From a virus, in the IMG/VR virus record IMGVR_UViG_3300000101_000021, positions 26,057 to 53,926 of that record: a DNA stretch of 27,870 nucleotides; one strand, 5' to 3'. Positions 11,001-27,870 of the stretch are shown in pieces. Under the pieces are notes generated by a model. That model was not told where the DNA came from. It saw nothing but the letters and a program-made list of their open reading frames with translations, and searched no databases. How positions within the stretch are numbered: the stretch's first letter is position 1; each line of letters begins with the position of its first letter. The position numbers were made by a program, and so were the translations under genes.

Positions 11001-14000
11001 AGACCCTATGCAAAACAACTTGCTAGGCGCAGTCAGAGAAAACTTAGATTATGTTTCTAACATCGATCCTGCTAGTTACAATGTTGATCCAGCAAATGTT
11101 ACTAGTGGTTTAGTTTGGGGTACTGATCATGTTGGTGAACTTTGGTTTGACACAACAAACACACGTTGGGTAAACTATCACCAAGACAACGATGCAGAAT
11201 ACAACAGTAGATATTGGGGTGCAACATTCCCTGGATCAGATGTAGCAGTTTACACATGGGTAAAGAGTAATCAACCACCAAGTCAATACACAGGTTTAGG
11301 AACAGTTAAAAATGCTACTGTATATACTATTGAAAGCAAATTAAATGCAACTAACATTGTAGTTCCTGTATACTATTTCTGGGTACGTAATACAAACGTT
11401 ATCATTACAGACTTAGACAAAACATTAGCAGACGGAACATTAGAAAGATACATTAAATTCCCACGTTCTTCAGGCATTGCATACATGGCACCAGTGTTGC
11501 CAAATGCATTTGCTATCTATAACTCAGATGAGTTTATTAATGCGAATGATTCAGTATTTCATGTAGGCTTTGCAACAGGCGACAGTGATGCTGTCCCTCA
11601 CCAAGAATTTAATTTAATCAGAGATGGTTTCGCAGATGACTTCTTGCCAGGACTTCCCAAGTTAGGAGTACAAAACTCTACAACTACTGTCCCAATTGGA
11701 TTGTATGATCGCTTATTAGACTCTATGTCTGGCGTAGATGAAAGTGGACAAGTTGTCCCTGATCCTTACTTACCCAAAGCAGTACAGTCAGGTGTATTAG
11801 CACGTCCAAGACAAAGTTTCTTCTTTGACAGATTCTTAGGAATACAAAACTATCTAGTATATGCAAACACAATATTAGCACAGTTCCCAATCGCTGAAAC
11901 AAGACAAAATGCAACATACTTATTTCAAACAGGAACATATTATGACACTACTGATTATTGGGAATATGTCAATTGGTATCTGCCTACAGTTAACCCAGTC
12001 GGTCAATACAATAATAACACTAAGTCAACTGTATCAGTAGAAAAATATGCAGACTTAGCCTCACTAACAGTCGATATAGACACAATAGCAACTGTTGAAC
12101 AAAACGGTGATGGCAAGTGGGAATTTTATCGATTTGATGGCAACGGTGTTTGGACTCGTATTGGTTTAGAAAACGGAACCATACAATTTAAAACATATCT
12201 TTGGGATTATGCGGCAGGCAAAACAGGCTTTGGTGATAACTTCTTTGACACTGATTCTTTTGATGAATATCCAAGTGAAGAAACACGTTGGATTATTCGT
12301 GCATTAAACGAACAAATTTATATTGATGAACTTATAACATATAGAAACAAATCATTGATTCTTTTATTTGAATACATTCAAAGTGAAACAGATGAATCAC
12401 AAAACTTCTTGCCATGGTTAAATAAAACTTCTCTTGTTGACGTAAGTCATACTATTAGAGAATTAAAACCTATTGAGAACTTCCAATCTGACAATCAGAA
12501 CTTCTTATCTGGATACTTAAATGAAGTCAAGCCTTACCACGTTGTAATCAAAGACTTCTTGTTTAACTATACTGGGTTAGAAGATTACAGAGGCACAATC
12601 AGTGACTTTGATTTACCTGCGGAATATAACTCAAACGTTGATAGATATATCAGTCCACAATTAGTTTACAATAATGTAAACAACGAGAATCAATATCTAC
12701 CAACTAATGCAATTTGGCAAACACCACAGTACAAAGATTGGTTTAACAATTACGGTGTTTCTATTTTAGGACAAACTGATTACGACATAACTATTCTAAG
12801 CAATTACATTGAGCAAGGTTCAACAACATTGATTGTTGATAATGCACAAGGATTCCCAATCAATGGTAGCATAACTATTGGTACAGAAGAAATTGCTTAT
12901 TCATATGTTGATCGTGCATTAAACATCTTGGGAGGATTACAGAGAGGTATCAATGATACTACTGCAACATCACATCTTCCTGGAGCTCCAATAATTATTG
13001 ATCTACCAGCAGTCTTGCTTTTAAATGGCGGGAAGAATTACGTGGAACCACCACGTGTCACAGCATACATTGATACAACAATTTATCCAGAGCCAAGAGT
13101 CGAAGCAGAATTCGAAGTGGTTATGTCATTAGATTCTGTAAACAGTGTGAAAGTTATAAATCCCGGCGAAGGGTATGCTGTATTACCAGAGATTAGAATT
13201 GATTCTGCTGTAGAACTATTCTTTACAAATTCAGATATCAACTCAACACTACATACTATCTCATTATTTGCACCTAACTTATCAACAGGTGATTTGATAC
13301 AGTATAAAGATTCTGAAGATGGAGAAAGTGTTACTTTATTAGAAAACGATCAGTGGTACTATATTAATGTATTAGAAAATACTCCAACTGCACTTATTGC
13401 GTTGTATTCTAGTTATGGCGATGCAGTCAACGAGACAAAAAGAATCAAGTTTACAAGCGGAACTGAAGACGGAAGTTTCTCACTGAATGTTGGTGCAAGA
13501 GCATCAGCAATTACTACATCATCTCCTGTAAGAGAAAACATCTATACATTAAAGTATGATAGAACAACTTACACAAGTCAAATAAAAGATTGGGAAGAAG
13601 GAGTGTTCTACGGATCATTCTTTGCAGGTAGTTATTTTAATAGTGAAGACATTGCATCATCTGCAATTAAACTACAATCAACTCAGCCTCCAATCGATTC
13701 AGTAGCGGCATCAGCACAAGGCGCAGTTTTTGAAATAGATGCTGTAGCAAATAAACAAACAGTTGAATATTCCGAGTTTGCTCGTAGAGTAATTGATACA
13801 GTTGCAACTGGAAATAAAATTAGATTGAATCCATATGACGAAGCATCAGGTGAGTTAAACGCATCTGGTTCTACAATTGGTTTCACTGTTGGCATGCCAA
13901 TTAAGTTTACTGGTGAAGTACTTGGTGGTATTATAGCAGACCAAGTTTACTTTGTCAAGTCCATAATTAATACAACAGATTTTACTATTAGTGAAACTAA

Positions 14001-17000
14001 TGGTGGCACAACATTTAGTGTGACTACAGCAACAGCAAGTATTCCAATGATTGCATATGCAGGTAAGGTTACTGATACAGCAGTATTAACTCTTAACTAT
14101 CCTGGCATCTTAGATGCAACTGCGACAAACGGAACTACTAACAAGATTACAATTCCACAAAGTATTATAGGCACTGGCGGTACAGACGGATTCTATATTG
14201 GTATTCCATTGTTCTTTACTGGAACTACATTCGGTGACGTTGTTGAAAACGATGTTTACTATGTAACAACTGTAGCGTCTAGTAGTGAGATAACAATCAG
14301 TTCCTCAACAACTCCGATCACTACAACAGTTTCTGCTACGACAACAGGAACAAACATAGTTACTGTAGAAGATTCAAGTAAGTTTACAATTAATGATCCT
14401 ATCATTTTTAATACAATGCTAGACTCATCAGGCAATGTAATTACAGACCTCGGTAATATTATATCAGGAACTGTATACTTTGTCAATGAAATAGTTTCTG
14501 GAACAGAAATTAAAATTGCAACACAAGTTAACACTTCTCCATTAGCACTCACAAGTGTAACTGGAACCGCACTGTTGACAAACCAGAAAGATGTGTTACA
14601 ATTAGCAACTGCTACAGGCTCAATGACAATAAATGTATCGTTGCCAGTATCACCAGGTCAAGTTGACGGACAGAAGTTTACACTTTACAACACGTCTCCG
14701 TACTATACTGATATTGCTTCAGGTACACTGACTGAACAACTTACTAAAAATGTTGATGCTACTATTGCAACTGTCGATAGAGTTGCATTGAGAAAAACAG
14801 ATGACGGCACAAGTAATTTTTATGTCAATATGCCAGTTGTATTTGATGACACAGTGGGTGGCATAACAACAGGTACTCCATACTTTGTTACAGACTTTAG
14901 TAATCTTCTTAGAACTGCTGGAACATTTATCATTGGAACAACTTATACAATTACTTCAGTAGGCACAACTGTCTTTACTGACATTGGTGCAACATCTAAC
15001 AACATTGGTGAAGTATTTGTTGCAACAGGCGTTGGTACTGGTGACGGTACTGCGACAACTACAGCGATCTCAGTATTCTGTACAGGAACATTAACAGTTG
15101 ATAACTCTGTCACATGTGTTACTACAGAATCAATGTATGACAACATGCCAATTATATTCACTGGAATAGGATTAGGAAACATTGTTGTTGGTACTGAGTA
15201 TTATGTTAGAGATATTTTAGATGCAACATCATTTACATTATCTGAAACTGTCGGTGGTGCAGAGTTTGATTTATTAACAGACAATGGATCAATGACAGGT
15301 ACTGGATCTCAGTACATTACAATATCAACTTCAGCAGGTGGAGCAAATCAAGTATTAAGTGCCTCTCTAGCAGAATTTGGATTTACACAAACTCCACAGT
15401 CTGTTGCTGAATTCGATATCGGTTATAAACTAGGTGGCTACAGAGCAATCATTAGTTCAGCAGGTTCAGGCTATGCAATTACTAATACTATTACAGTATC
15501 TGGTGCAGAAGTCGGTGGCACATCAACACCAAACGATGTCACATTAATCGTAGATGCAATCGATGACGATGGTGCAATTACAAGTCTGATAATATCAGGC
15601 GACCCTGCAGATATACTGTCAGACTATTATTTAAAAATTCAAAATCAAAATCAATTAGAAGTTTATTCAGACCCACTAATGACTGTTCCAGTCTCAGGTA
15701 CTGGATTTGAATTTGGTGGTTTTGTAACTACTAATGTTACAGCAACAGATTCAGGCGGAGCCACAACAGGTTACTTAACTGTTGATGACACGTCATCATT
15801 TGAACTCAATGATCCAGTAGTCTTTATGAATATTAGCACAGCAGAAAATACTGCATCTAACTTGACTAGTGAAGTAACATACTACATTGTATTAATCGAT
15901 GGCACAGGAATATCTGTAAGTGCAACACCAGGCGGCACTGCTATAGTATCTGCTACAAGTTTAGCAGTAGACTTCTCAATGTCTAAAGCAGGTAGTTATG
16001 CGTTCTTACCAGAACCATTCTACTTCAATCAGTCTATTATAAAATACTTAGACAGAGTTTATCGTTGTGTTATTTCTAATAACGATGATGAATTTGTTAT
16101 TGGTAAGTGGGAAGAGTTAAGATCAGATAATAGAATCTTAAATGCACTTGACAGAGTTGAAGGTTATTATAAACCAACTGTCAATATGCCTGGACTTGAT
16201 CTTACGCAACTATTTGAAGGCGTATCATATCCAAATGCAGTTTACTTAGGTAATTCATTTGCACCTGAAGATCAATTTACTATTGATACACAATTACAAG
16301 ATGAGCCTTTCTACCCGAAAAACATTTCAAGTACTGGAGTAGTTTGGAACGGTAATAATTATTATGCATCTTCAAACTTGGGAACATACTCGGGTATACT
16401 AACATCATTAACAGGTACTACTTGGTCAATCAAACAACTTGCAACATCAGTACTTGATTTGACTGATATTATATTAGGTGGTGGCGTTTATGTTATGTCT
16501 TGTACTAACACAGCAACACCAATCTTTAGATCAATTGATGGCGTAACTTGGACAACTAATTCAGAATCGTTGACTATTCCTGCTGTACAGTTACAAAGTG
16601 TAGCATACAGAAATGGATTCTATGTTGCAGTCGGAGACGAGATCGTACAAAGTAATGATAGTTTTGTATGGACATCACGTAAAACATATGACACAGTATT
16701 CGATGTCACATTAAACGGAGTCAATTCGATTGACGCATCTGGCTTTAGTGGATTTATCGCAGTTGGTAAAGGTAAAAAATATGATTACTCAACTGGCGTT
16801 ACTGAATTAATAGACACTAACATTGTTGCATATACTACTCAGCAAAATGGAGAATCATGGTCTAATGGAGATTCTGTTACACCAAACGGTTGGAACGCAG
16901 TTGCAAGTAATGGCACAACAGCAATAGTAGTTGGTGAAAACAATGTTGTTTATCAATCTAACAATGGTGGTAGTTGGACAGGCATTAATGAACTTAGTGT

Positions 17001-20000
17001 TGTCTCTATCAACCAAGCATCAGATCAACTTAATGTTAGTATGACAAGTGGACTCACAGATGGTGATCCAGTAAGAGTAACAGATTCGTTTGGTAACTTA
17101 ATAGTAGACACTACATATTATGTTAAAGTTATTTCTACTTCAAAAGTAGAACTATATAGTGACTCAGGATTAACAGCAATAGTAACATTAGTAGATGCAG
17201 TCATACCATTAGACAGTAGACTGTTCTTATATGATGCTACATCTCAAACACTAAATGATGTTGTTTATTATAACAGCATTTGGATGACTGTAGGAGACAA
17301 CGGTAGAGTACAAACATCATCAGATGGCTTACGTTGGACAACAAGAACATCAGGCGTGACTGAAAAACTCAACAGTCTAAACTATAACGCAGATGATGAT
17401 ATTTGGATTATAGTTGGCGATAATAATATAATTTTAGAATCACTTGACTCTGGTGTAACATGGGCATTATCAAATGCATTTACTACAGCAGAGCCTATCT
17501 ATGATGTTAAAGGCGCAAACTTTGCATTTGGCTACGGACCAGAAGAATTAGTACCAGGTTACATAAAAGATAACTTTGCAATGACAGTAGTCACACGTCC
17601 AGGTACATTATGGGATCCCACAGAGTATTCACACACAGGATTCAATGTAGTATCTCGCACACTTGCACCTACTTCAGAATTCCAAGTTGATTATAGTTTC
17701 GATTTATTCGTACAATATCCAATTGATCTTAACATACAAATCATTGATCCAGCAACAGGCTTAGGTACTGGACTTGCTACAAGTGAGTACACTATCGATT
17801 GGCCTACAAAAGTTATCACACTTAATACAGCACTACAGTTTGCACCAAAAGAAGAATTACGTATAGATGTTTACGAAGTTGGTAACGGTAATCAATTAGT
17901 AAAAGCAAATACAGATACTGATCCGATTAGACAAATAGAATCAACAGGCTTCGATGACATTTACTTAAACTGTAACTACAGTGCTACATATTTCGAAGGC
18001 TCTGGCTTGATCAGAACAGGATCAAATGCAATCGAAGTTGAAGCAACAGCAACAGAAGCATCATCAGACAGAATTACATGTGTAAGTGTTGAAGACTTTG
18101 TTGTCAACGATCCAATCTCATTCCAAGGAGTTGTGTTCGGTGGAGTAGCAGAAGAAACTGCTTACTATGTGAAGTCTATTTCTACAGCGACAAATTCAAT
18201 AACAATTTCAGCGACATACAATCCTACAACAGGCTTGGCTGGACCAGTGTTGAGTCTAACTGACGCAACTGGATCAATGATTGTTAACATACAAACTGGT
18301 ACAGGTACTGTTTGGACTGATCCAATTATATATCACAATGGATCTAAACTTGTATTAGGTAAAAACAATACAGTCAGTAGAACACGAGCATCAAACAATG
18401 CGATCACAACTGGTTCAACTGTAGGCTTAATTGCAAACAGTAGAATTTACTTTGCGGCAGATATGTTTGGAACTGACATTACACCTAATTCAGAATACTT
18501 TATTAAAACAATTGTAGACGGAAATGAATTTACGATTTCTGAAACTCTAGGTGGCACAACACTAACACTCGCAGATGCATCTGGTCAATCATCATATGTA
18601 TCAAACGATTATGCAATCTCAATACAACCAAATGGCATACAAGCAAAACTCGTATTCGGTCCTCCTAACTCTTACACAAACAATACAGATTACTTAGTCT
18701 ACTCATTGTTCGGAGAATCAAACGGTACTACTCAATACGGCTACACTATTCCAGAAGTACAAGAGTTTGTAGGTAATGGTTCAAGTGCATCGTATGCATT
18801 AGATAACTTTGTAGGTGGAACTAATCCACACAATGCTATTGTTGAGATCAATGGACTAAGACAAACTATATCACAATACACAATCGATGATGCAAGTGAC
18901 ACTATCTTGTTTAACTCTCCTCCTGCAAACGGAGCAAAGATTTCAGTCTTAACATACAATGATACTGGAAGACAATACTTATCAACACAATATGGTATCG
19001 CAGGAATCTCAGGAAGTTCTGCTGTAACAATTACAGTTACTGCTACAACTCACTTAGAAGGTACTTTCGATGAAGATGCTCCAAGTATAGAGACATATGA
19101 CCAAGACACGCCTACTATCGTTACATACGATGAGTTATTAGACACTTTAACTTGTGCAGACACATCAGTCTTAACAGCAGATGAGCCAATAGTCTTCTCT
19201 AATCCAACTATAGGTGGAATTACAGCAGGTGTAACATACTATATCTTAACGATTATTGACGCAACAACATTTACAGTCTCAACAGAAGTAGGTGGTGCGC
19301 CAGCAACTGTAACAACTGATTCAGGTTCAATGGTAGGTAGTTCAAACGCTGTTACTGTAGCAAATATTACTGCAATCGAAACATCTATTGAAGAACCATT
19401 GATCACTACAGCAACTGCTACATCAGTTACTGGAAACTTAATAACATTTACTGATACTTCTGGATTCGTACCAAGTCAGCCAATCTTGTTTGCAGGAACG
19501 CAAATGGGTAACATAGTACCTGGTACATATTACTTTGTTGGTACAGTATCAAGTTCAACAGAAGCAACGATAACTGATCAGTTTGGTGCTGTCATTACAC
19601 AGACAACTGCATCAGGCAACATGCTTGTTAAACAAGGCGGCAACCCAACTACAAGAATTACAACAGGCATTCCACATGCATTAGCAGATGATGTTTTATG
19701 TACAATTGACGGAACTCTAGGCTCAGTAGAATTGAATGGTAACAGTTACTATGCTAAAGTAATTGACGCATATAAATTTGATATCTATACTCAAATCTTT
19801 AACCCAGCAGTTGATGCTCCTAACAATCCTGTCGTAGGTGTTAGTACATATATAAGTGGTGGTTATGTTTGGAGACAAGGCACATTCTTCTTATCTACAA
19901 CTGTAGCAAGTGAAACAGTAGCATCTAATAACTCTATCGTTGTTAATTCAACAACTGACTTAGTTGTGAACACTCCAGTTATCTTTACTGCTCAAGGTTC

Positions 20001-20979
20001 TCAAGTAGATGATGTATTACTAGGTGGCATAGTACAAGGAACAACCTATTATGTAAATGAAATACTCTCTGGAACAACATTTACTATTAAAACAACCCGA
20101 ACAGGAATAGCATCACTCTCTTTAACAAACGAGACAGGTGTTATGAATGTAACGCAGTGGGAACAAACAAATGTTGAAAGAATTTGGGTAACAGTCAATG
20201 GATTGCGTATACCAAACAACAAACTAGTTGTTAATTCAGATAATGAAGTAAGTATCTTAACAGTAATTCAGCCTGGTGATATAGTTATTATGACTAATAT
20301 GATTCCACACTCAACACCAGATGAAGAAATATACTTGAACTTTGTTAATAGTGACCATGAAGCATCAATCTATCGTGCAAATGTACAAGCAAGAACATGG
20401 TTGACAAAACCAATTAATGATCTGACTACATCAATTTATGTACATGATGTTACTAGATTAACAGACAATGTAATACAGACAAATACAACAACTGCTCCTA
20501 GTAATAATTTATACTCTATTGGACTTGTATCTGATAAAAGAATTCTCACTGGTGTAACTGTTGTAAATACTACGACCGGTGTGACTTTAGATCCAGAAAC
20601 AGATTATTTTGTAACTGTAGAAGATTTAGCACCAATATTGAATATTAGAACTGGAACTTACATAACAACTGGCGATGAGTTAAAGATCACATCACTTGTT
20701 GGTAATCAAATCTATGTTAATGGTGAGCAAATTGGGTTTACAAGTGTAGACTTTGCAACAAACTCTATATCAGGATTGCAAAGAGGTACAGGTGGTACAG
20801 GTAAACAGAAAGATATCCCTGTTAACTCAGAAGTTCTTGGATTATTGAATACAAATAGACTTCCAAACGTTTATTATGATCAAACTTGGAACTCATATAA
20901 CTTTAATGCTGTTCAAGGAGACCCATTGCAGATCAGTGATACAGTCTCAGCACAGTTTCTACATACGGACATTACATAA
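1615..20979 (+). CDS. Giant virion structural protein (6454 aa), probable baseplate wedge/fibre component with two predicted beta-propellers
   Basis: A single frame of 19,365 bases encodes 6454 residues. The ATG at 1615 follows the previous stop by 18 bases; the only Shine-Dalgarno-like sequence, AAGGA at 1595-1599, is 15 bases away, so initiation may rely on coupling. The N-terminus (FLPEIFQTDTNAQFLGATLD, residues 9-28) looks like that of giant structural proteins of marine T4-like phages. No signal peptide or transmembrane segment is evident. Order by residue: N-terminal conserved block 1-142; beta-rich region to about 1300; aromatic-rich block 1401-1629; FG-GAP-like propeller 2384-3086; KPYH block 3606-3672; repeat array 4064-6179 enclosing an Asp-box propeller 4902-5307; C-terminal block with a GLQRG motif. 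It follows a gp6-like gene, so it may stand in for T4 gp7/gp10 and carry host-binding modules. That role is inference; the gene and its virion origin are well supported. Confidence 0.85.
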   Translation: MAKIRTLDFLPEIFQTDTNAQFLGATLDQLVNPPVTEQLQGYVGSKFGYGINARNNYVTEPTKTRTDYQLDPSVVFLKKNETVAKDFITYPGMLDALQLRNGVTEDNDRLFTSEIYSWDSFTDLDKLINFNQYYWIPNGPPVVTVATATVFSTSDYIVTDTPNAYNIKALGSATGTNNPTLTLLRGGSYRFAVNQETQFWIQGVPGVTGLDGNQNTRDILGVSNNGATQGYVNFTVPNRDAQNDLLFPGNNLVDVVSTTVFADINGKRLSEVGNIDGVTSLENLTVMFYDTGEPTEVGFVQSFFDENGANYDVNLTTPELVAPVTLAITETTTNSVVTSGTTEDLIVNQTVTFEAVPASDPLLGGLDVNTIYYVKEIVDATSFKLSDTLNGPELVLSAETGTMTANINEGLFEEGFYTNVSENFYTIQYVGTSDDPTIRLIPAGVIPTEEKITAVFGTDYIGLTFYRNEAGTILQIPYLSAVLDTLYYQDGTNANKVGAIRLIDSNLTNTLDVDEDIIGHKTFESTNGVVFTNGLKVQFDGDIIPTSYLSGEYYVEGVGESIQLIPTTDLTVPEDFTGTEFIPYDTLNYSIGNFDVELFIPIDEDYLTINRGAINNNAWSRSNRWFHIDVINASATYNNDPNISTVFATGTNKAKRPIVEFYPNLKLFDSGTVAKAPVDFIDTRTTNAFAQVANQQQYYPDIESYTNYTATIAPATAATTTTITIATTDIVAPFQVAQYVTDSTNLLPNNTTITDIEVSGLNTIITVSWESNETFVGTSIASIVGSDTTVNNYELFSGARIVFTADTNPIVKDKIYVVGFSKTSVSSSLVITLSESEDSPVLVDNQTVSLRGFYNQGSTFWYDGTNWEEGQQKLKVNQAPLFDIFDNNGISFGDATIYQGTSFLGNKLFAYGQGVGQNDAVLGFPVRYSDVANLGDISFDVSLNVDTFNYVTGTSPVTQLVNTGYVYDYSARTTKTRELGWQTAVAPSVQYQIFELEYTTGSTAEFTCDVSVIAEDYSNWPRVQVYVNNVYQLPTEYTLSSTDKTTTVTLNTAPLIDTPIQILLLSKQVSKTAYYSIPINLSNNPFNESLQEAALGDIRRQYQDTFINNANTTGVMFGANNYRDLGNMVPYGTSIIQNSASLVLPGTFLRKSEYNIFDALQYNSEQYVKYKQLIVQTVNNTEFEQRFNPSVILDTALETITQAKSEGDSFFWSDMLPSQSPFKSTSYTFANALSEAIYPLSKIYDFTKANYSSVLVYLTRTESGVTTTTQLTTGVDYTVSSTEPSLTVTLGLISEDIITIKEYNQTYGSFVPNTPTKLGTYPAFIPGVVLDPNYKVPTYMLKGHDGSYTSLYTLNYTPETGLTDFRDQALLEFETRIYNNIKLSTIVPIEAYEILPGFFRESSYSNPDWIKMYTPRFLSWAGQNRINYKDQQYTSSDEFSFNYYQSGNKLTNTPIDQGYWRGVYQYYYGSSQPNIAPWEMLGFAEKPAWWEAQYGAAPYTSNNSVMWNDIEAGKIYNTGITVDELKRPGLSKILPVDDQGELLSPLTAILGNYTQTTFKRDWKAGDNAPAEFSYRRSSSWPFDLMRLFALTKPAQFFNLAVDIDNYKYNTEFKQYLVNDRSHLIISDVDVYGSGTPKTSYLNWIVDFEKQQGIDSTKEITTVLANLDVRLVYRLAGYSDKTALKFFVEKGTPNSINSSLLIPDESYQVLLHDNQPVDQIIYSAVVVQQVANGWKVFGNSQSQAYFTIDQPIFNGNNSVCEYDNLTVKVAKDYTTSATDEQLVPYGTQFYTPQELSQFLGSYGAWTRRKGMQFDYIDNAIEINWELMVKEYIYWVSLDWSNGSLITLNPAAQYLKINKDSTIVQPLTISQNNFVLNQNFYPIAIQDMSISRLDTEFTIKTQNDGDTFAYGQFNLSNFEHGIVFDNTTNFNDVIYNLVTGLKQNRVFLRGTKSAEWNGTVFASGFIYNQDNVKEWETGVKYTRGMIVTFKNKYWTASKIIEPSATFRELDWVETDYDQIQTGLLPNSSTRAYEQTLYYNTNKANLERDADQLSFSLIGYRPRDYLGLIDLTDITQINVYKNMIKSKGTVNAVSAFKGANLPQGGIDYDVYENWGILAGQFGGTLNNNFVDFKLNEALLTGNPAITALTNGVGTPGSQQEIAIYNLYNYARPISSPDVLPTLTNSYTENLYPTAGYVNFNDVKMSSFYYSGLPRAVNQERIRVPIRDFYVRDYAWLANFKADWGVYAWKPIARVIGITSNTDNTTTITFDKPHGLTRLDPVSFINVARPVNGYYITTAIVSITQITINLNLPDSDDIILTGNGLGLKFLNQRVKTPSAITDLDLNEAEFSKNTVWVDEAPSGDWGTYRKSINYAPLDTLSIAGAETFASAVMYTPRMGYLVGDQKAGKVYRYGYNTVTGEFDLDPGSTQTEVASFGTTIAYSGNLFAISEPTTTTGGLGSSTLRIYTLNDTVLSDDIIPLQEFIGPEGAGTSLAISDDQDWIYSGSPLSNQVEVYNRQRLPFTAGFFNIGETYEITSLGTTTDDQWKAIGAVEGKLGIKFNATGVGTGTGTADQISYVEMAEIEGTIPPINAVAGDNFGFSVSTDDNGDKIVVGAPNTGSSGGTDNSGASFVFNRVVQNFESQYNSIPNQPHQFDLAWTQVYVTRTATGVASNVISYTGPGTIADNDAIVFSENGTFGNSGINPNQVYYATATGLGVFSLKESRSTNTVVTLIDDPALSSSIWNQVDSTITKVSVNGTFVDDSNYAVGGGQQALRYFGNLVAGDIVKVDSKVIIWEQSFLSENDTRVGAQFGYALDTTANGSELLVGSPQEIIVEGQETFNGVVYRFTNAGGKYGVVSGTNECTLTANRTLLINGFRVNLTSGSNATAVANSITGAGITNITASATSDNKLIISVISSGLSLVNERIVLQQTDFDTLTELGIDSYVQTQIIKCPHNRTRNGFGETIKFNEYDSVVIAAPLGERFLGTTFDFTDDENLDNDTIFDNNATRFVDVYTNAGAVYMFDFLQNYQPSLLSPGKFIYAQNVNSKTENYGNQPLYGTALDFNSNQVVVGTPNFLPGDVNGQLTVYNNESGQRDWRIFRESGKVVDINKIQNTQIYSAETNNTLVNLDYLDPMQNNLLGAVRENLDYVSNIDPASYNVDPANVTSGLVWGTDHVGELWFDTTNTRWVNYHQDNDAEYNSRYWGATFPGSDVAVYTWVKSNQPPSQYTGLGTVKNATVYTIESKLNATNIVVPVYYFWVRNTNVIITDLDKTLADGTLERYIKFPRSSGIAYMAPVLPNAFAIYNSDEFINANDSVFHVGFATGDSDAVPHQEFNLIRDGFADDFLPGLPKLGVQNSTTTVPIGLYDRLLDSMSGVDESGQVVPDPYLPKAVQSGVLARPRQSFFFDRFLGIQNYLVYANTILAQFPIAETRQNATYLFQTGTYYDTTDYWEYVNWYLPTVNPVGQYNNNTKSTVSVEKYADLASLTVDIDTIATVEQNGDGKWEFYRFDGNGVWTRIGLENGTIQFKTYLWDYAAGKTGFGDNFFDTDSFDEYPSEETRWIIRALNEQIYIDELITYRNKSLILLFEYIQSETDESQNFLPWLNKTSLVDVSHTIRELKPIENFQSDNQNFLSGYLNEVKPYHVVIKDFLFNYTGLEDYRGTISDFDLPAEYNSNVDRYISPQLVYNNVNNENQYLPTNAIWQTPQYKDWFNNYGVSILGQTDYDITILSNYIEQGSTTLIVDNAQGFPINGSITIGTEEIAYSYVDRALNILGGLQRGINDTTATSHLPGAPIIIDLPAVLLLNGGKNYVEPPRVTAYIDTTIYPEPRVEAEFEVVMSLDSVNSVKVINPGEGYAVLPEIRIDSAVELFFTNSDINSTLHTISLFAPNLSTGDLIQYKDSEDGESVTLLENDQWYYINVLENTPTALIALYSSYGDAVNETKRIKFTSGTEDGSFSLNVGARASAITTSSPVRENIYTLKYDRTTYTSQIKDWEEGVFYGSFFAGSYFNSEDIASSAIKLQSTQPPIDSVAASAQGAVFEIDAVANKQTVEYSEFARRVIDTVATGNKIRLNPYDEASGELNASGSTIGFTVGMPIKFTGEVLGGIIADQVYFVKSIINTTDFTISETNGGTTFSVTTATASIPMIAYAGKVTDTAVLTLNYPGILDATATNGTTNKITIPQSIIGTGGTDGFYIGIPLFFTGTTFGDVVENDVYYVTTVASSSEITISSSTTPITTTVSATTTGTNIVTVEDSSKFTINDPIIFNTMLDSSGNVITDLGNIISGTVYFVNEIVSGTEIKIATQVNTSPLALTSVTGTALLTNQKDVLQLATATGSMTINVSLPVSPGQVDGQKFTLYNTSPYYTDIASGTLTEQLTKNVDATIATVDRVALRKTDDGTSNFYVNMPVVFDDTVGGITTGTPYFVTDFSNLLRTAGTFIIGTTYTITSVGTTVFTDIGATSNNIGEVFVATGVGTGDGTATTTAISVFCTGTLTVDNSVTCVTTESMYDNMPIIFTGIGLGNIVVGTEYYVRDILDATSFTLSETVGGAEFDLLTDNGSMTGTGSQYITISTSAGGANQVLSASLAEFGFTQTPQSVAEFDIGYKLGGYRAIISSAGSGYAITNTITVSGAEVGGTSTPNDVTLIVDAIDDDGAITSLIISGDPADILSDYYLKIQNQNQLEVYSDPLMTVPVSGTGFEFGGFVTTNVTATDSGGATTGYLTVDDTSSFELNDPVVFMNISTAENTASNLTSEVTYYIVLIDGTGISVSATPGGTAIVSATSLAVDFSMSKAGSYAFLPEPFYFNQSIIKYLDRVYRCVISNNDDEFVIGKWEELRSDNRILNALDRVEGYYKPTVNMPGLDLTQLFEGVSYPNAVYLGNSFAPEDQFTIDTQLQDEPFYPKNISSTGVVWNGNNYYASSNLGTYSGILTSLTGTTWSIKQLATSVLDLTDIILGGGVYVMSCTNTATPIFRSIDGVTWTTNSESLTIPAVQLQSVAYRNGFYVAVGDEIVQSNDSFVWTSRKTYDTVFDVTLNGVNSIDASGFSGFIAVGKGKKYDYSTGVTELIDTNIVAYTTQQNGESWSNGDSVTPNGWNAVASNGTTAIVVGENNVVYQSNNGGSWTGINELSVVSINQASDQLNVSMTSGLTDGDPVRVTDSFGNLIVDTTYYVKVISTSKVELYSDSGLTAIVTLVDAVIPLDSRLFLYDATSQTLNDVVYYNSIWMTVGDNGRVQTSSDGLRWTTRTSGVTEKLNSLNYNADDDIWIIVGDNNIILESLDSGVTWALSNAFTTAEPIYDVKGANFAFGYGPEELVPGYIKDNFAMTVVTRPGTLWDPTEYSHTGFNVVSRTLAPTSEFQVDYSFDLFVQYPIDLNIQIIDPATGLGTGLATSEYTIDWPTKVITLNTALQFAPKEELRIDVYEVGNGNQLVKANTDTDPIRQIESTGFDDIYLNCNYSATYFEGSGLIRTGSNAIEVEATATEASSDRITCVSVEDFVVNDPISFQGVVFGGVAEETAYYVKSISTATNSITISATYNPTTGLAGPVLSLTDATGSMIVNIQTGTGTVWTDPIIYHNGSKLVLGKNNTVSRTRASNNAITTGSTVGLIANSRIYFAADMFGTDITPNSEYFIKTIVDGNEFTISETLGGTTLTLADASGQSSYVSNDYAISIQPNGIQAKLVFGPPNSYTNNTDYLVYSLFGESNGTTQYGYTIPEVQEFVGNGSSASYALDNFVGGTNPHNAIVEINGLRQTISQYTIDDASDTILFNSPPANGAKISVLTYNDTGRQYLSTQYGIAGISGSSAVTITVTATTHLEGTFDEDAPSIETYDQDTPTIVTYDELLDTLTCADTSVLTADEPIVFSNPTIGGITAGVTYYILTIIDATTFTVSTEVGGAPATVTTDSGSMVGSSNAVTVANITAIETSIEEPLITTATATSVTGNLITFTDTSGFVPSQPILFAGTQMGNIVPGTYYFVGTVSSSTEATITDQFGAVITQTTASGNMLVKQGGNPTTRITTGIPHALADDVLCTIDGTLGSVELNGNSYYAKVIDAYKFDIYTQIFNPAVDAPNNPVVGVSTYISGGYVWRQGTFFLSTTVASETVASNNSIVVNSTTDLVVNTPVIFTAQGSQVDDVLLGGIVQGTTYYVNEILSGTTFTIKTTRTGIASLSLTNETGVMNVTQWEQTNVERIWVTVNGLRIPNNKLVVNSDNEVSILTVIQPGDIVIMTNMIPHSTPDEEIYLNFVNSDHEASIYRANVQARTWLTKPINDLTTSIYVHDVTRLTDNVIQTNTTTAPSNNLYSIGLVSDKRILTGVTVVNTTTGVTLDPETDYFVTVEDLAPILNIRTGTYITTGDELKITSLVGNQIYVNGEQIGFTSVDFATNSISGLQRGTGGTGKQKDIPVNSEVLGLLNTNRLPNVYYDQTWNSYNFNAVQGDPLQISDTVSAQFLHTDIT
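2614..2838 (+). repeat. First, isolated copy of the YYV-type beta repeat (residues 334-408)
   Basis: It follows the same plan as the array at 13.8-20.2 kb: an NQTVTF strand, then GGLDVNTIYYVKEIVDATSF, then a LSAETGTM ending. The copies are recognisable only at protein level and there is no obvious nucleotide identity, so the duplication is old. The repeat resembles small beta-barrel modules that automated annotation of phage proteins often labels as E1 FCCH-like; that link is from memory and uncertain. Confidence 0.55.
4594..4818 (+). other. VNG-type beta-sandwich module in the giant protein (residues 994-1068)
   Basis: The segment has the pattern VQVYVNNVYQLPTEYTL, followed by a strand TTTVTLNTAP and a hydrophobic IQILLL strand. 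This is the common phage fibre pattern of a surface strand, an asparagine-containing turn, Q-x-x-P/S-x-Y-T, then a buried strand. Related copies lie at about 17692-17890, 18763-18960 and 20170-20320. A structural role in a tail-fibre-like stalk is inferred. Confidence 0.45.
5815..6500 (+). other. Aromatic-rich conserved core of the giant protein (residues 1401-1629)
   Basis: The region is dense in Trp and Tyr: a YSNPDWIKMYTPRFLSWAG segment, a WWEAQYG motif near 6079, and YRRSSSWPFDLMRLFALTKP near 6334, followed by NLAVDIDNYKYN. It differs from the Thr/Ser/Val-rich composition of the rest. I recall similar W-x-x-SS-x-WPF motifs in giant marine phage structural proteins. This is probably a folded baseplate-core domain; no enzymatic motif is visible. 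Confidence 0.45.
8383..8555 (+). repeat. PHGL-type FCCH-like repeat (residues 2257-2313)
   Basis: The unit reads TTTITFDKPHGLTRLDPVSF, then VNGYYITTAIVSITQITINL. It matches the pattern PHGL-x(4)-D-x-V-x(n)-LNGxYxV-x(n)-F/I-T-I that recurs in phage tail proteins and is often labelled E1 FCCH-like. A second PHGL-type unit (PHALADDVLCTIDG, then LNGNSYYAKVIDAYKFDIYT) lies at 19648-19820 within the main array. The family link is from memory. Confidence 0.5.
9175..9324 (+). repeat. GTYTI-type module, copy 1, inserted between propeller blades
   Basis: The unit reads FFNIGETYEITSLGTTTDDQ, then a WKAIGA strand, and ends in FNATGVGTGTGTA. Copy 2 at 14918-15055 reads FIIGTTYTITSVGTTVFTDI, then FVATGVGTGDGTA. 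The shared pattern is F-x-IG-x-x-Y-x-I-x-S-x-GTT and ATGVGTG-x-GTA. The GGTACT-type hexamer recurs three times around 9300-9317 and encodes the Gly-Thr run. Confidence 0.6.
9610..9813 (+). repeat. YYA-type beta repeat inserted in the FG-GAP-like propeller
   Basis: The unit follows the YYV plan: a NDAIVF strand, then NQVYYATATGLGVFSLKES. It lies between blades 4 and 5, so the same repeat type is found both inside this propeller and in the C-terminal array. The match is at the level of pattern only. Confidence 0.45.
12430..12630 (+). other. KPYH conserved block of the giant protein (residues 3606-3672)
   Basis: The stretch contains FLSGYLNEVKPYHVVIKDFL, then YTGLEDYRGTISDFDLPAEY. A similar signature with EVKPYH and TDFDLP recurs, from memory, in giant structural proteins of marine T4-like phages. 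It separates the first propeller half from the C-terminal repeat array. Function unknown; probably a structural core. Confidence 0.5.
12811..12999 (+). repeat. GLQRG module, copy 1
   Basis: The unit reads STTLIVDNAQGFPINGSITI, then IGTEEIAY, then GGLQRGINDTTATSH. A second copy lies near 20686-20860 (YVNGEQIGFTSVD, then SISGLQRGTGGTG), close to the C-terminus. This strand-turn plan (IG-x-E-x-I-x-Y/F, then G-x-x-RG) is frequent in phage fibre proteins. It is recognised as a pattern; no function is claimed. Confidence 0.5.
14918..15055 (+). repeat. GTYTI-type module, copy 2
   Basis: This segment, with FIIGTTYTITSVGTTVFTDI and FVATGVGTGDGTA, is inserted in the YYV repeat that begins near 14773. 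It is the counterpart of the copy at 9175-9324 within the FG-GAP-like propeller. The two are similar in protein pattern but clearly diverged in nucleotides. Confidence 0.6.
16318..17535 (+). other. Predicted Asp-box (BNR/sialidase-like) beta-propeller (residues 4902-5307)
   Basis: Seven Asp-box-like turns are spaced through the region: SLTGTTW near 16405, SIDGVTW near 16531, SNDSFVW near 16651, QQNGESW near 16840, SNNGGSW near 16957, SSDGLRW near 17317 and SLDSGVTW near 17441. Three to five match the S-x-D-x-G-x-x-W consensus well; others are partial. Between them, strands such as YVAVGDEIVQS, AIVVGENNVVYQS, WMTVGDNGRVQTS and WIIVGDNNIILES repeat one blade plan (VG-D/E-N-x-V-x-Q/E-S). A YYV-type repeat (17005-17212) is inserted between the fifth and sixth turns. 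Asp boxes are structural turns of propellers in sialidases and other proteins and do not by themselves show catalysis. Glycan or receptor binding is inferred. Confidence 0.7.
18763..18960 (+). other. VNG-type beta-sandwich module near the C-terminus (residues 5717-5782)
   Basis: The pattern is FVGNGSSASYALDNF, then AIVEINGLRQTISQYTID, then TILFNSPPANGAKISVL. It is the clearest of four such units in the protein (others near 4594, 17692 and 20170). It fits the widespread phage-fibre motif of a GNGS strand, an NG-x-x-Q turn and a SPP-x-x-G-x-x-I strand. Confidence 0.5.
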
Positions 20980-23996: not shown

Positions 23997-24230
23997 GTGG
24001 CTGACACTACCGAATTTAAAGGTAAACACTATCCCTCATGGCACGGTTCCCCTTTTGACAGGGGTTCCGCTGACTCTTGGTATGACCGAGCCAAATCCCC
24101 TCACTATTATCCAAACGGCACTGGGAACAATCCCAGAATCGACCCACCCGAAATGAAAGATTCTGAAGTTGAAGCATACCTTATGGGATATGCTCACAAC
24201 GAACAGCATGGCGGCAAAAAAGAGTGGTAA
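23997..24230 (+). CDS. Small hypothetical protein (77 aa), high-GC, RMF-like pattern
   Basis: GTG start three bases after the previous stop, in the same frame and with no clear Shine-Dalgarno, so translation may depend on coupling or stop readthrough. The sequence has FDRGSADSWYDRAKSPHYYP (residues 20-39), then GTGNNPRID, and ends in an acidic helix plus a GYAHNEQHGGKKEW tail. From memory, small marine phage proteins share RGSADSYY...PH and GY...K-x-W. The plan of an RGxxD/A helix, a proline-rich middle and a G-Y/W helix faintly resembles ribosome modulation factor, but this is weak. By hand count 24001-24150 is about 51% GC, well above its neighbours. A perfect 6-bp hairpin with an ACAA loop lies at 24121-24136. 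Real gene probable; function unknown. Confidence 0.6.
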   Translation: MADTTEFKGKHYPSWHGSPFDRGSADSWYDRAKSPHYYPNGTGNNPRIDPPEMKDSEVEAYLMGYAHNEQHGGKKEW

Positions 24231-24279: not shown

Positions 24280-24287
24280 TCTAAATA
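24280..24287 (+). promoter_or_regulatory. Putative T4-like late promoter (TCTAAATA)
   Basis: TCTAAATA differs from TATAAATA at one base, and CTAAATA-type variants are known in cyanophages. CTCTAAAT occurs twice, at 24269-24276 and 24279-24286, ten bases apart. Transcription would begin near 24293, with GGGAG at 24293-24297 as the ribosome site 11 bases before ATG 24309. It probably starts the transcript for the train of overlapping genes to the right. Confidence 0.45.
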
Positions 24288-24308: not shown

Positions 24309-24623
24309 ATGGATACAAAAACATTAATTAAAGATGCGAAAGCAAGGTTTAGTCACAACTCTGCTAAAGCATATTTAAAAGAAAAATACAACAGCAAACT
24401 TATCATTGCAGAACAAGGTGGACTATGGAGAGCAGATGCTCAAACTATTGCCTTGCTTTCTTCACTATCAAGTCAATTTACAGAAACTACAGTACTAATC
24501 GATACATTTGATAATCCAGTACAAGTAGACATCGTTCCTTTATTGGAATCTTTAACAAACCTATATAATAATGTTATGACTGAGTGGTACAGTGAATGGA
24601 CAGAATTAGAAAACAAGCGGTAA
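24309..24623 (+). CDS. Conserved-looking hypothetical protein (104 aa)
   Basis: First gene after the non-coding gap. The protein starts MDTKTLIKDAKARFSHNSAK, then AYLKEKYNSKLIIAEQGGLW, followed by a hydrophobic beta strand TVLIDTFDNPVQVD and a C-terminal helix (NNVMTEWYSEWTELENKR). I recall proteins with the same KARFxHNSAKxYLKEKY...GGLW layout among T4-like marine phages, where they are unnamed. It is acidic, soluble, without membrane segment or catalytic motif. Its last 28 bases overlap the start of the next gene, so translation is probably coupled. Function unknown; a virion assembly or chaperone role would fit the position but is a guess. Confidence 0.6.
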   Translation: MDTKTLIKDAKARFSHNSAKAYLKEKYNSKLIIAEQGGLWRADAQTIALLSSLSSQFTETTVLIDTFDNPVQVDIVPLLESLTNLYNNVMTEWYSEWTELENKR

Positions 24624-25453
24624 GTCGAGGTGTAGTTGTATTTGCATTCAATTCAAGCAAATATAATTATGTTGAGATGGCTGAGTACTGTGCAAGAAGG
24701 GCAGATCACTTCTTGGAACTCCCTACGACTATCATAACTGACGAAGAGTCCGCCCAAACAATCACTTACGACTTTGATAATGTAGTCATAGTCAAATCAG
24801 ATAAATCTAATACACGTGAACAACAAGTATGGATTAATAAAGGTAGATATCAAGCATATGAACTTAGTCCTTATGAGGAAACGCTTGTACTTGATGTTGA
24901 TTACATTATCAATTCAGATAAACTTTTAAAAACGTTTGATTACTCAGACTCATTCTGCTGTCATAACAGAACAGAAATGCTAATGTACCCAGAGGCTCCA
25001 CAAGAGTATCTTAGTTCATACAGTTACAATTCTTTATGGGCAACAGTGATTATGTTTAAGAAATCTGATCGTGCAAAACAAATATTTGGCACATTAGAAA
25101 TGGTACAAAACAATTATGATCATTATGCAAACATACACAGTTTTGTAGGTGGCATCTATCGTAATGACTATGCACTCACTCTTGCACTAAAGATCGTTAA
25201 CGGACACGCAGACGTACCAAGTGATTATATACCTTGGAACTTAGTTCACGTAGGCAAGAACACATCTGTATATGCAGATGAAACAGATATACAAGTACCT
25301 TGTGACGGTGATGTCTATGACTTTAATACAGAGTTTACAGTTATGTTCGATCATTGGAAGAACAGCAAGATGAGAAAAGAATATGTAACTATTAAAGACA
25401 TGGACTTTCACATAATGAATAAAGATTTATTTGAGGGGATAATGAATGGATAA
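24596..25453 (+). CDS. Glycosyltransferase-like protein A (285 aa), DVD motif
   Basis: ATG 24596 is the only good start before the conserved core; it overlaps the previous gene by 28 bases. The layout fits a GT-A fold: strand VVVFAFNSS (residues 13-21), helix NYVEMAEYCARR, strand TTIITDE (44-50), then YELSPYEETLVLDVDYIINS (88-107) containing a DVD at 100-102 where GT-A enzymes hold the metal and nucleotide sugar. VIMFKKSDRAKQIF (151-164) is the next secondary-structure pair. The following gene is a paralogue with the same blocks. From memory, such proteins are common in marine T4-like phages and are often unnamed. The sugar donor, acceptor and activity are unknown. Confidence 0.58.
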   Translation: MDRIRKQAVSRGVVVFAFNSSKYNYVEMAEYCARRADHFLELPTTIITDEESAQTITYDFDNVVIVKSDKSNTREQQVWINKGRYQAYELSPYEETLVLDVDYIINSDKLLKTFDYSDSFCCHNRTEMLMYPEAPQEYLSSYSYNSLWATVIMFKKSDRAKQIFGTLEMVQNNYDHYANIHSFVGGIYRNDYALTLALKIVNGHADVPSDYIPWNLVHVGKNTSVYADETDIQVPCDGDVYDFNTEFTVMFDHWKNSKMRKEYVTIKDMDFHIMNKDLFEGIMNG

Positions 25454-26246
25454 AGGATTCGTTATTATAGCACAAAACACTGACCTTGTCAACTATGTCC
25501 AATGTGCAGAACAACTAGCAAAGTCAATCATTCGTGTTATGCCTGATGCTAAGGTATCTTTGATTACAGATAATGAAACTGCATCAGATGTATTTGATCA
25601 AGTTATTAAATTGCCTTATGGAGATCAAGCACCAGATTCAGATTGGAAACTTGTTAACGATTGGCAAGTATATGAAGCAAGTCCTTATGAGTACACAATC
25701 AAGTTAGAAGCAGACATTTATGTACCATCATCAATTGATTATTGGTGGGACGTGTTGAAAGAAAGAGACTTAGTTATCTCTACAACTATAAGAGACTTCA
25801 AGCAAAATATATCCCCTGTAAGAGCCTATAGACACTTTGTAGACGATAACGAACTGCCAGACACATATAATGCAATAACATATTTTAAGAAGTCAGAAAC
25901 AGCAAAAGAATTCTTTGACATAGTAAGACACATGTTTGAGAATTGGGAAAAGTTTAGAGACACACTACAATGTAACCCAGGTGAGTTAGCAACTACTGAT
26001 TGGATTTATGCATATGCATCACACTTGATTGGTGTAGAGAAAACAACATTGCCTACTTTTACCGATATGTCAATGATACATATGAAACAATTCATAAATA
26101 CTATGCCTACAGAAAACTGGATTGATACGTTAGTATATGAAATACACCCACATTCATTACGAGTCAATACGATACCCCAGCGGTATCCGTTTCACTATCA
26201 TATCAAATCATTTTCTGCTATAATAGAGGAGTCAATTGGTGAGTGA
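25446..26246 (+). CDS. Glycosyltransferase-like protein B (266 aa), paralogue of A
   Basis: ATG 25446 follows GAGGGG (25433-25438) by 7 bases and overlaps gene A by 8 bases; a nearby ATG at 25442 is in gene A's frame. Blocks align with A: strand VIIAQNTD and helix NYVQCAEQLA near the N-terminus, strand KVSLITDNE (36-44), YEASPYEYTIKLEADIYVPS (76-95), and ITYFKKSETAKEFF (144-157). The DxD of A is replaced by EAD at 88-90. A TTDWIYAYASHLIGVE helix and a C-terminal YPFHYHIKSFS segment, both recalled from marine phage relatives, are present. It is probably a second GT-A-like enzyme or an inactive partner. Acceptor unknown. Confidence 0.6.
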   Translation: MDKGFVIIAQNTDLVNYVQCAEQLAKSIIRVMPDAKVSLITDNETASDVFDQVIKLPYGDQAPDSDWKLVNDWQVYEASPYEYTIKLEADIYVPSSIDYWWDVLKERDLVISTTIRDFKQNISPVRAYRHFVDDNELPDTYNAITYFKKSETAKEFFDIVRHMFENWEKFRDTLQCNPGELATTDWIYAYASHLIGVEKTTLPTFTDMSMIHMKQFINTMPTENWIDTLVYEIHPHSLRVNTIPQRYPFHYHIKSFSAIIEESIGE

Positions 26247-26604
26247 AGAAAATAACGAAGAATATATTCTTATTTGGGACGCACCAGTGATTGAGGCACC
26301 AGAATTTAGATTATACTACAAGGATGATGGGAGTGTAGACTTCTACACATGTGATAAGCCTGAGGGAGATTACATTGTTGTTGATGCAATGGCATTTGCT
26401 GAGGCTCGACCTGACATCAAAGTAGTTAATGGGCGTATTGCTAAGATTAGACCACATGCAATTGTACAAAAGTTAAGACCTAGTACAAAAGGACAGACAA
26501 CTTCTATAACAGACATAAGTATTATTATTAACCCTGAAAAGATCACAGAACAGGATCAATCAAAAGTTCAACATTGGGAGTTGTGTGATTATGAAATCGA
26601 ATAA
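26239..26604 (+). CDS. Hypothetical protein (121 aa)
   Basis: I chose GTG 26239 because AGGAG (26227-26231) lies 7 bases before it; the TTG at 26236 would be only 4 bases away. It overlaps gene B by 8 bases. The protein has an FRLYYKDDGSVDFYTCDKPE segment (residues 23-42), then GDYIVVDAMAFAEARPDIKV (43-62), then VVNGRIAKI, a compact alpha/beta pattern of about 70 residues, followed by a polar tail. From memory, short proteins with LYY...G...FY...KPEG-x-YI-x-VD occur in T4-like cyanophages without known function. No catalytic motif. It lies between glycosyltransferase-like genes and probably shares their transcript. Confidence 0.62.
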   Translation: MSEENNEEYILIWDAPVIEAPEFRLYYKDDGSVDFYTCDKPEGDYIVVDAMAFAEARPDIKVVNGRIAKIRPHAIVQKLRPSTKGQTTSITDISIIINPEKITEQDQSKVQHWELCDYEIE

Positions 26605-26764
26605 AGACATTACAGATTTACCGTCTGACATCAGAAACAAATGGAAGCCAAGTGAAGGCATTAACTGGGACTTGATTCAACGTATGAGATTTATGAATGC
26701 TGATGCAGAGATAGATCCAGAAGATACTTATAGTGAAGAAGCAAAAAAGGATATTGATGAGTAA
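26591..26764 (+). CDS. Small acidic hypothetical protein (57 aa)
   Basis: ATG 26591 follows GGGAG (26576-26580) by 10 bases and overlaps the previous gene by 14 bases. The 57 residues include ITDLPSDIRNKWKPSEGINW (residues 7-26), a helix DLIQRMRFMNADAE and an acidic end, PEDTYSEEAKKDIDE. The gene is too short for firm family assignment, but tight overlap on both sides and a ribosome site support it as real. Its stop overlaps the next gene's ATG by 8 bases. It could be a small regulator, an adaptor or, less likely, a substrate of the downstream radical SAM-like enzyme. Confidence 0.55.
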   Translation: MKSNKDITDLPSDIRNKWKPSEGINWDLIQRMRFMNADAEIDPEDTYSEEAKKDIDE

Positions 26765-27701
26765 TATTATTGACATTGCAGATTTAGATTGCATTTATCT
26801 TTCATATGATGAACCACAGAAAGAAGAGTTCTGGCTAGAGATTAAGAACATGGTGCCTTGGGCTCAACGTGTTGATGGCGTATTAGGTAGTGATGAAGCA
26901 CACAAAGCCGCAGGTGAACTAAGTGAGACTGAACGATTCATTCTTATCGATGGTGACACTTTGCCAGAAGAAGACTTCTTTAACATTCAATTAGACTTTA
27001 CAGACAAAGACCCAAGATATCACCAAGCACAATTTAGATGGAAGTCTATTAACAATATTAATGGCTTACGATATGGTAACGGTGGTATGTCCTCATGGAC
27101 TAAAGCATATGTAGAGAATATGACTACACATGAACACACTGACGGATCTGAAGCAACACAAGTAGACTTTATGATGAACTCAGAAGATTCGTTATACTGG
27201 GCAATGTATGATTGCTATTCAACTACTTACCCTAACAAATCAGCATTCCAAGCATGGAGAGCAGGCTTTAGAGAAGGTGTTAAGATGGTCTTAGATAGAG
27301 GCGCATTAGTAACAGTAGATCAGTTTAAACACAAAGTAGCAGACAAGAATTTAGATAACCTAACTGTCTGGCAGAATGTAGGCTTAGATGCAGAGAACGG
27401 TGACTGGGCGATCTATGGAGCAAGACTAGGAACATACATGACAATGTTAACAGACTTTGAACACACAGACATTCAATGGTTTGATAACTATCCTGCTATG
27501 TGGGAACAGTACATGAACAATGATCCAATTGCATCAGCAAAAGAAATAGGGGAAGAACTAAAAGCAAAATTGGGACTACCAATGAACATGCTTGATGAAG
27601 AACAATCAAAGTTCTTTAAAAGACATTACAATGCAGACAAAAGAAACTTAGGTCCCCTCGTAACAGAGATGGAGATTATCAGAGAAATAGAAGGCTGGTA
27701 A
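26757..27701 (+). CDS. Glycosyltransferase-like protein C (314 aa), DGD motif
   Basis: I prefer ATG 26757, 5 bases after AAGGA (26747-26751), over an in-frame GTG at 26733 that would add eight residues. The protein begins with the strand CIYLSYDEP (residues 12-20), then VDGVLGSDEAHKAAGELSET (39-58), then FILIDGDTLPEEDFF (61-75) with DGD at 65-67, matching the strand-DxD order of GT-A enzymes. Then come FRWKSINNINGLRYGNGG (93-110) and an acidic, Trp-rich C-terminal half. I recall proteins with LSYDEP, VxGVxG...AH and YGxGG in T4-like marine phages, usually unnamed. It is not a close paralogue of A or B. Activity and acceptor are unknown. Confidence 0.6.
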   Translation: MSNIIDIADLDCIYLSYDEPQKEEFWLEIKNMVPWAQRVDGVLGSDEAHKAAGELSETERFILIDGDTLPEEDFFNIQLDFTDKDPRYHQAQFRWKSINNINGLRYGNGGMSSWTKAYVENMTTHEHTDGSEATQVDFMMNSEDSLYWAMYDCYSTTYPNKSAFQAWRAGFREGVKMVLDRGALVTVDQFKHKVADKNLDNLTVWQNVGLDAENGDWAIYGARLGTYMTMLTDFEHTDIQWFDNYPAMWEQYMNNDPIASAKEIGEELKAKLGLPMNMLDEEQSKFFKRHYNADKRNLGPLVTEMEIIREIEGW

Positions 27702-27870
27702 TGTCTAAAGAAACAGACAGAATAAAAACAATACAAATCCGAGTTGAAGAGGAAGCCACTCCTTCATTCTGTCTTGCCAAATGGCAACATGTTACTATGT
27801 ATTTACAAACAGGTGAAACACATAGTTGTTATCATCCACAACCACATAAGATTCCATTACATGAATTAAA
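27701..27870 (+). CDS. Probable radical SAM (twitch-type) protein, 5' part; continues beyond the window
   Basis: Only 56 residues are visible. ATG 27701 overlaps the previous stop by one base (TAATG) and follows GAAGG (27690-27694) by 6 bases, so translation is coupled. The stretch SFCLAKWQHVTMYLQTGETH (residues 22-41), followed by SCYHPQPHKIPLHEL, matches my memory of the N-terminus of twitch-domain radical SAM proteins in marine phages, which share FCxAKW...HSCxHPxxHKIP. The CxxxCxxC cluster motif would lie further on and is not seen, so the call is unconfirmed. It lies in a train with three glycosyltransferase-like genes, suggesting shared modification of a glycan or protein (inference). 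Confidence 0.5.
   Translation, partial: MSKETDRIKTIQIRVEEEATPSFCLAKWQHVTMYLQTGETHSCYHPQPHKIPLHEL

Follow-up and report, generated by a model that had tools for sequence, protein, structure and literature searches.

A fibre-linked glycosyltransferase module and a separately exchanged radical SAM block as the possible start of a late glycan-assembly operon in an uncultured T4-like aquatic phage

Why should a large aquatic phage carry, directly behind its tail-fibre genes, a tight string of glycosyltransferase genes that runs into a radical S-adenosylmethionine (rSAM) enzyme? The question is raised by a virus record of 53,926 bases (IMG/VR IMGVR_UViG_3300000101_000021), the final stretch of which, a window of 27,870 nucleotides (G000:C1:26057-53926), closes with a cassette of seven genes, P104, GTA, GTB, P121, P57, P314 and rSAM1, at positions 24309-27870 (plus strand, as are the promoter motif, P317 and P408 described below). 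Successive genes overlap by 28, 8, 8, 14, 8 and 1 nt, and these overlaps and the open reading frames (ORFs) listed in an initial annotation of this DNA are all present as described there; its proposal of a co-expressed unit of glycosyltransferases and an rSAM enzyme, concerned with a surface or virion sugar, is supported as well. The reading tentatively preferred here, at slightly less than even confidence, is that an uncultured T4-like aquatic phage has here, in its host-recognition region, the start of a late operon for glycan assembly, with the fibre as likely acceptor. That it belongs to a late glycan-assembly operon with either the fibre or the host surface as acceptor is probable.

The arrangement recurs widely. 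GTB and the rSAM fragment, used as queries against IMG/VR, retrieved 160 loci, and removal of duplicates left 103 distinct GTB-carrying loci that form the base of the counts in relatives. The order P408-P317-P104-GTA-GTB-P121-P314, which includes two fibre-region genes preceding the cassette, is held in 102 of the 103 for whichever cassette genes each has, so that the conserved gene order on which the initial annotation had made its pathway depend is found, and an rSAM1-type gene comes next after P314 in 80 of the 89 loci that reach far enough. Overlaps are kept at P104/GTA in 91 of 92 relatives, at GTA/GTB in 98 of 103, at GTB/P121 in 81 of 90, at P121/P314 in 77 of 90 and at P314/rSAM1 in 69 of 89; since the same neighbours overlap across relatives, these overlaps go beyond chance. 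A likely start of transcription is marked by the late-promoter-like motif CTAAATA (24281-24287), 28 nt ahead of the P104 ATG. In relatives the form [CT]TAAATA lies within 70 nt upstream of P104 in 82 of 92 cases, against 2.8 expected, and is not above expectation upstream of GTA, GTB, P121, P314 or rSAM1, while a weaker excess, of the degenerate form only, precedes P317 and rSAM4. The exact CTAAATA is otherwise scarce in the window (3 occurrences, 10.6 expected) and appears again in the same record 33 nt ahead of its portal gene. It is the documented late-promoter motif of the T4-like phage Aeh1 (PMC1524935), and the corresponding cyanophage motif is NATAAATA (PMC2984593). Because the motif is conserved before P104, recurs before the portal gene and equals the published Aeh1 motif, the assignment of the cassette as a putative late transcription unit is well supported.

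The cassette is, however, not a single evolutionary unit, and in this the initial annotation needs correcting. Distance correlations between genes across relatives (Spearman; the distance pairs are non-independent and the values are raised by physical linkage) reach 0.89 for P317-GTA, 0.88 for GTA-P314 and 0.82 for GTA-GTB, and P317 correlates less with its direct neighbours P408 (0.72) and P104 (0.80) than with GTA. High values are also found inside the downstream rSAM block (rSAM3-rSAM4 0.95, rSAM4-rSAM5 0.87), whereas between the two groups they amount to just 0.24-0.62. Direct comparison gives the same picture: between loci L133, L135 and L141 and loci L017, L028 and L094 the transferases are 26-42% identical and the rSAM genes 64-78%. 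Judged by these distances, the locus consists of a co-evolving first module (the fibre gene, P104, GTA, GTB, P121 and P314) and a second, the downstream rSAM block, swapped as a unit, with the junction between P314 and rSAM1. The glycosyltransferases thus track the tail-fibre gene, and the rSAM block has a separate history.

What the first module encodes can be specified in part. GTA (24596-25453) is a predicted GT8-like glycosyltransferase of the glycogenin/LgtC type, whose AlphaFold model (pLDDT 91) has a GT-A fold and matches glycogenin (Protein Data Bank, PDB; E=5e-7), LgtC and other GT8 enzymes, viral GT8 proteins among them, and whose DxD motif (D100 and D102) is invariant across 51 aligned sequences. 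Neither GTA nor GTB matches a Pfam family at E<=1, the GT8 family included, so that the likeness to GT8 is structural only; this and a TM-score of about 0.45 place GTA on what would be a distant GT8 branch. GTB (25446-26246) is its paralogue (hhalign 99.5%, E=2e-22), carries a [DE]xD motif with an invariant D90, and is assigned to the GT-A group by its homology to GTA. A search of the PDB with the GTB profile gave RtcB (E=0.0094) and glycogenin (E=0.4), both too weak to be used, and sequence-profile searches of the PDB with GTA and P314 returned nothing useful. Of the three glycosyltransferase-like proteins named in the initial annotation, then, two stand as paralogues, and the third, P314 (26757-27701), shows just a weak GT-A-like match. 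This possible nucleotide-sugar enzyme has a GT-A-like N-terminal part, an invariant DGD (D65-D67), a model of pLDDT 83 and no profile link to GTB; its weak PDB matches are HddC, a sugar nucleotidyltransferase, SunS and the PBCV-1 capsid glycosyltransferase (best E=1.3e-4, at a TM-score of 0.3), and its activity could be that of either a transferase or a nucleotidyltransferase. The module further includes two conserved small proteins, P104 (24309-24623), which opens the cassette and is present in 92 of the 103 relatives, and P121 (26239-26604), found between GTB and P314 in 90 of them. No membrane segments were found in the cassette proteins.

The second module begins at the very end of the record. 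rSAM1 (27701-27870) stops after 56 codons because the window ends with the contig, and this fragment, too short to be scored against NF033640 or to include the cysteine motif, is 98% identical to residues 1-56 of a 466-residue protein in a close relative (locus L083). The full-length homologue has the CxxxCxxC motif and belongs to the twitch-domain rSAM family NF033640 (N_Twi_rSAM; E=4.8e-93, 312.4 bits where the cut-off is 170); behind it lie four more rSAM genes, of 440, 415, 426 and 337 residues, the first four of the five scoring 312-371 bits and rSAM5 remaining under the cut-off. The radical SAM motif that the initial annotation expected downstream is thus present in relatives, in 94 of 95 rSAM1 proteins, 58 of 59 rSAM2, 63 of 65 rSAM3, 55 of 55 rSAM4 and 61 of 61 rSAM5, and 52 rSAM2-4-type sequences share invariant C21, C39, C40, C81, C84, C136, C140 and C143 and a G194-G195-E196 triplet, in line with the N-terminal cysteines and GGE motif of SPASM/twitch enzymes. 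Twitch rSAM genes number from 1 to 17 in each of 29 related records, and the longest uninterrupted array holds 12 (L245:1664-17116). A tree of 147 rSAM proteins groups most array members with their slot counterparts in other genomes, far from their in-genome neighbours. Recent tandem duplication was therefore rejected for most members, whose nearest relative belongs to another genome and is some 0.1-0.5 substitutions per site away, in-genome distances being 1.1-5; a few exceptions (e.g., the L248 pair, and L243 12478 and 9996) pair in-genome or lack a close partner. The arrays thus mostly appear to be old sets of different enzymes kept together in fixed slots, and such old, distinct and ordered slots argue for several distinct steps. 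Bdellovibrionota chromosomal contigs (L226:275-11251, L168:9977-14688) also bear extended twitch rSAM clusters, some of whose genes are similar to the rSAM4, rSAM5 and rSAM1 slots of the phages; a Pfam tally of 130 bacterial neighbours of related rSAM genes, mostly from Bdellovibrionota and Flavobacteriales, gave no clear enrichment and was not used. A second rSAM gene of the same phage, of a different family (phrog_21308), lies beside an SbcC-like gene on the minus strand (L163:10635-11648 of G000:C1).

Beyond the window contig gene content could be read in relatives, where the rSAM genes are accompanied by a B12-binding rSAM enzyme (17 of 29 records), a carbamoyltransferase, an NAD-dependent epimerase, a DegT aminotransferase (19 of 29), a UDP-sugar dehydrogenase and a DUF6071 protein. 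The carbamoyltransferase occurs in 23 of 29 records, against 2 of 14 control genomes, and lies on the downstream side, 4.8-28.5 kb away, in 18 of the 18 cases measured. Such content fits sugar tailoring rather than peptide maturation. The nearest relatives also have, between rSAM3 and rSAM4, a DUF481 protein with a signal-peptide-like start (L083:13931-14605), possibly a phage-encoded outer-membrane protein.

From these elements we infer that the products share one pathway, that its substrate is a sugar and that its acceptor is a fibre. Transcription would start from the CTAAATA just before P104 and run through GTA, GTB, P121 and P314 into the rSAM block and the sugar-tailoring genes; epimerases and dehydrogenases, DegT aminotransferases, the different rSAM enzymes, the B12-dependent rSAM enzyme and the carbamoyltransferase would build a heavily modified sugar stepwise, and the GT8-like transferases would attach it. 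The acceptor would most likely be the neighbouring P317 (23040-23993), a fibre-region protein with 30% Ser+Thr that lies upstream of the cassette in nearly all relatives and gave no family match in Pfam or PHROG searches, or else P408 (21798-23024), a tail-fibre or spike-like structural protein with a Peptidase_G2 autoproteolytic domain (PF11962, E=5.9e-6; PHROG virion structural protein, E=6e-10). A fibre glycan of this kind would alter receptor binding or shield the fibre. The fibre is favoured by the late promoter, the translational coupling and the co-evolution with P317. It is possible, though short of likely, that the phage goes so far as to glycosylate its own tail fibres with a sugar made by up to a dozen different, sequential rSAM enzymes and finished by B12-rSAM and carbamoyl-transfer steps; in this reading of a dedicated viral pathway for a hypermodified virion glycan, exchange of the tailoring block would give different phages different glycans, just as exchange of fibres gives them different receptors. 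Several points weigh against the fibre-glycan operon: the assignment of P314 is weak, the downstream genes lie outside the window record, the carbamoyltransferase and DegT genes are missing from some rSAM-rich records (G023, G024), the distance correlations show modularity and not function, and in Gram-negative bacteria lipopolysaccharide (LPS) is a common target of GT8 enzymes, as a study of pelagimyophages argues for similar phages (PMC7029224).

This last point introduces the alternative that survives best, in which the same sugar pathway serves the host surface (LPS/O-chain or capsule), altering the receptor and excluding competing phages. It is the published reading for the pelagimyophage host-recognition clusters with GT8 enzymes (PMC7029224), and it draws on the resemblance of GTA to LgtC, among other GT8 enzymes, and on the DUF481 gene beside the rSAM block of the closest relatives. 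A late-type promoter and coupling behind fibre genes would nonetheless act late for the exclusion of competitors, and membrane proteins are few downstream (a hydrophobic segment in 3 of 75 genes), with no evident flippase or polymerase set. We consider a host-surface acceptor possible, though short of likely.

It is improbable that there is no joint pathway at all, the fibre-linked glycosyltransferase module merely adjoining a hotspot that gathers unrelated metabolic genes. Independent exchange of the rSAM block agrees with such a view, but the slots of the arrays are old and retain their order from genome to genome, most relatives show an overlap of 1-4 nt between the block and P314, and the carbamoyltransferase is found downstream in every measured case.

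Peptide maturation is the role for which SPASM/twitch rSAM enzymes are best known, and the initial annotation had raised a peptide-modification version of the system with the 57-residue protein P57 (26591-26764) as substrate; in the general form of this idea rSAM enzymes modify a small peptide, as in ribosomally synthesized and post-translationally modified peptides, or the fibre itself, and transferases glycosylate the product. The weak structural match of P314 to SunS, a peptide S-glycosyltransferase, points the same way. P57 is, however, a lineage-specific ORF present in just 6 of the 103 distinct loci, and without it P121 mostly runs straight into P314 with an overlap of 11-14 nt, which rules it out as a conserved substrate, and these loci hold no conserved precursor peptide beside the rSAM genes. 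P104 and P121 stay in place where rSAM1-rSAM5 are absent or replaced by other genes, and the downstream genes are of sugar type, which makes maturation of a peptide or protein very unlikely. Hypermodification of phage DNA bases is scarcely credible: DNA can be the acceptor of phage transferases (review, PMC12619734), but the cassette sits at the tail fibres and co-evolves with them, and none of its proteins has a PHROG match to a DNA-modifying transferase.

The cassette adjoins baseplate and tail-fibre genes in the manner of a T4-like host recognition cluster. Farther upstream the record encodes a portal protein, SbcC, SbcD and a baseplate wedge subunit of T4 type (phrog_10646, E=1.6e-165 and 9e-84), and then, directly upstream of the fibre-type genes, a giant virion structural protein, a single ORF of 6454 codons (window 1615-20979) whose first part matches, along about 900 residues, the virion structural family phrog_10938. 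A 77-residue ORF with a GTG start (23997-24230) lies between P317 and the promoter motif and has homologues in only two close relatives (L003, L004). One contig of 18.7 kb that was assigned by binning to a Rhodobacteraceae genome (L165) is plainly a close relative of the phage (rSAM3 93-94%), and so probably a misbinned viral contig. Among the isolate phages of the collection no match was found to rSAM1, GTB or P314, nor with distant P314 and GTA queries (E<=1), and rSAM3 had distant matches only, mostly in large Vibrio phages; the search was functional, since an epimerase query retrieved 191 records.

The word undescribed, which the initial annotation applied to its candidate functional system, was too strong, as published work on T4-like aquatic phages already places both glycosyltransferases and rSAM cassettes in their host-recognition region (PMC7029224, PMC5332604). 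In pelagimyophages and cyanomyophages the host recognition cluster is a variable island that follows the baseplate region and contains rSAM cassettes, tail fibres and glycosyltransferases of the GT8 type (PMC7029224), and the present locus resembles it in combining fibres, GT8-type transferases and rSAM genes after the baseplate region of a T4-like aquatic phage, a likeness that rests on the baseplate/fibre position, the boundary genes VrlC and gp14 not having been identified here (gp14 was not sought in relatives). It differs from the cluster, as the available text presents it, in its constant fibre-P104-GTA-GTB-P121-P314 module, its own late-type promoter and its separate, swappable rSAM/sugar-tailoring block; that text mentions the rSAM cassettes and assigns them no role (PMC7029224). 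TARA_ERS488813_N000010, an environmental virus genome of T4-like type that carries 12 rSAM genes, was discussed in terms of iron-sulfur (Fe-S) metabolism (PMC5332604), and this rSAM-rich marine phage shares A-type Fe-S carriers with the present relatives (13 of 29 records), but the accessible part of that account has none of the array order, slot orthology and fibre-glycosyltransferase link reported here. The two-module anatomy, the promoter, the size, age and slot orthology of the arrays and the downstream partner genes appear undescribed in the open-access literature searched, so far as its available text extends.

Virion glycosylation itself has precedents, in the capsid and tail of mycobacteriophages and the capsid of PBCV-1, and the principle would be the same if virus-encoded transferases act on virion proteins here; P314 weakly matches the PBCV-1 capsid transferase, the acceptor in the window phage being a candidate only. 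We know of no rSAM arrays in the mycobacteriophage and PBCV-1 systems.

That large uncultured phages of aquatic habitats possess many rSAM genes, at times beside tail fibres, is knowledge of some years' standing, and the available open-access literature yielded no explanation. The locus leads to a proposal that can be tested, in which a fixed transfer module, tied to the fibre and placed under a late-type promoter, is combined with an exchangeable sugar-tailoring block of ancient, non-interchangeable slots. If this is true, the arrays would hold a large number of untapped radical enzymes with sugars as substrates, and phage host recognition would come to include glycan chemistry.

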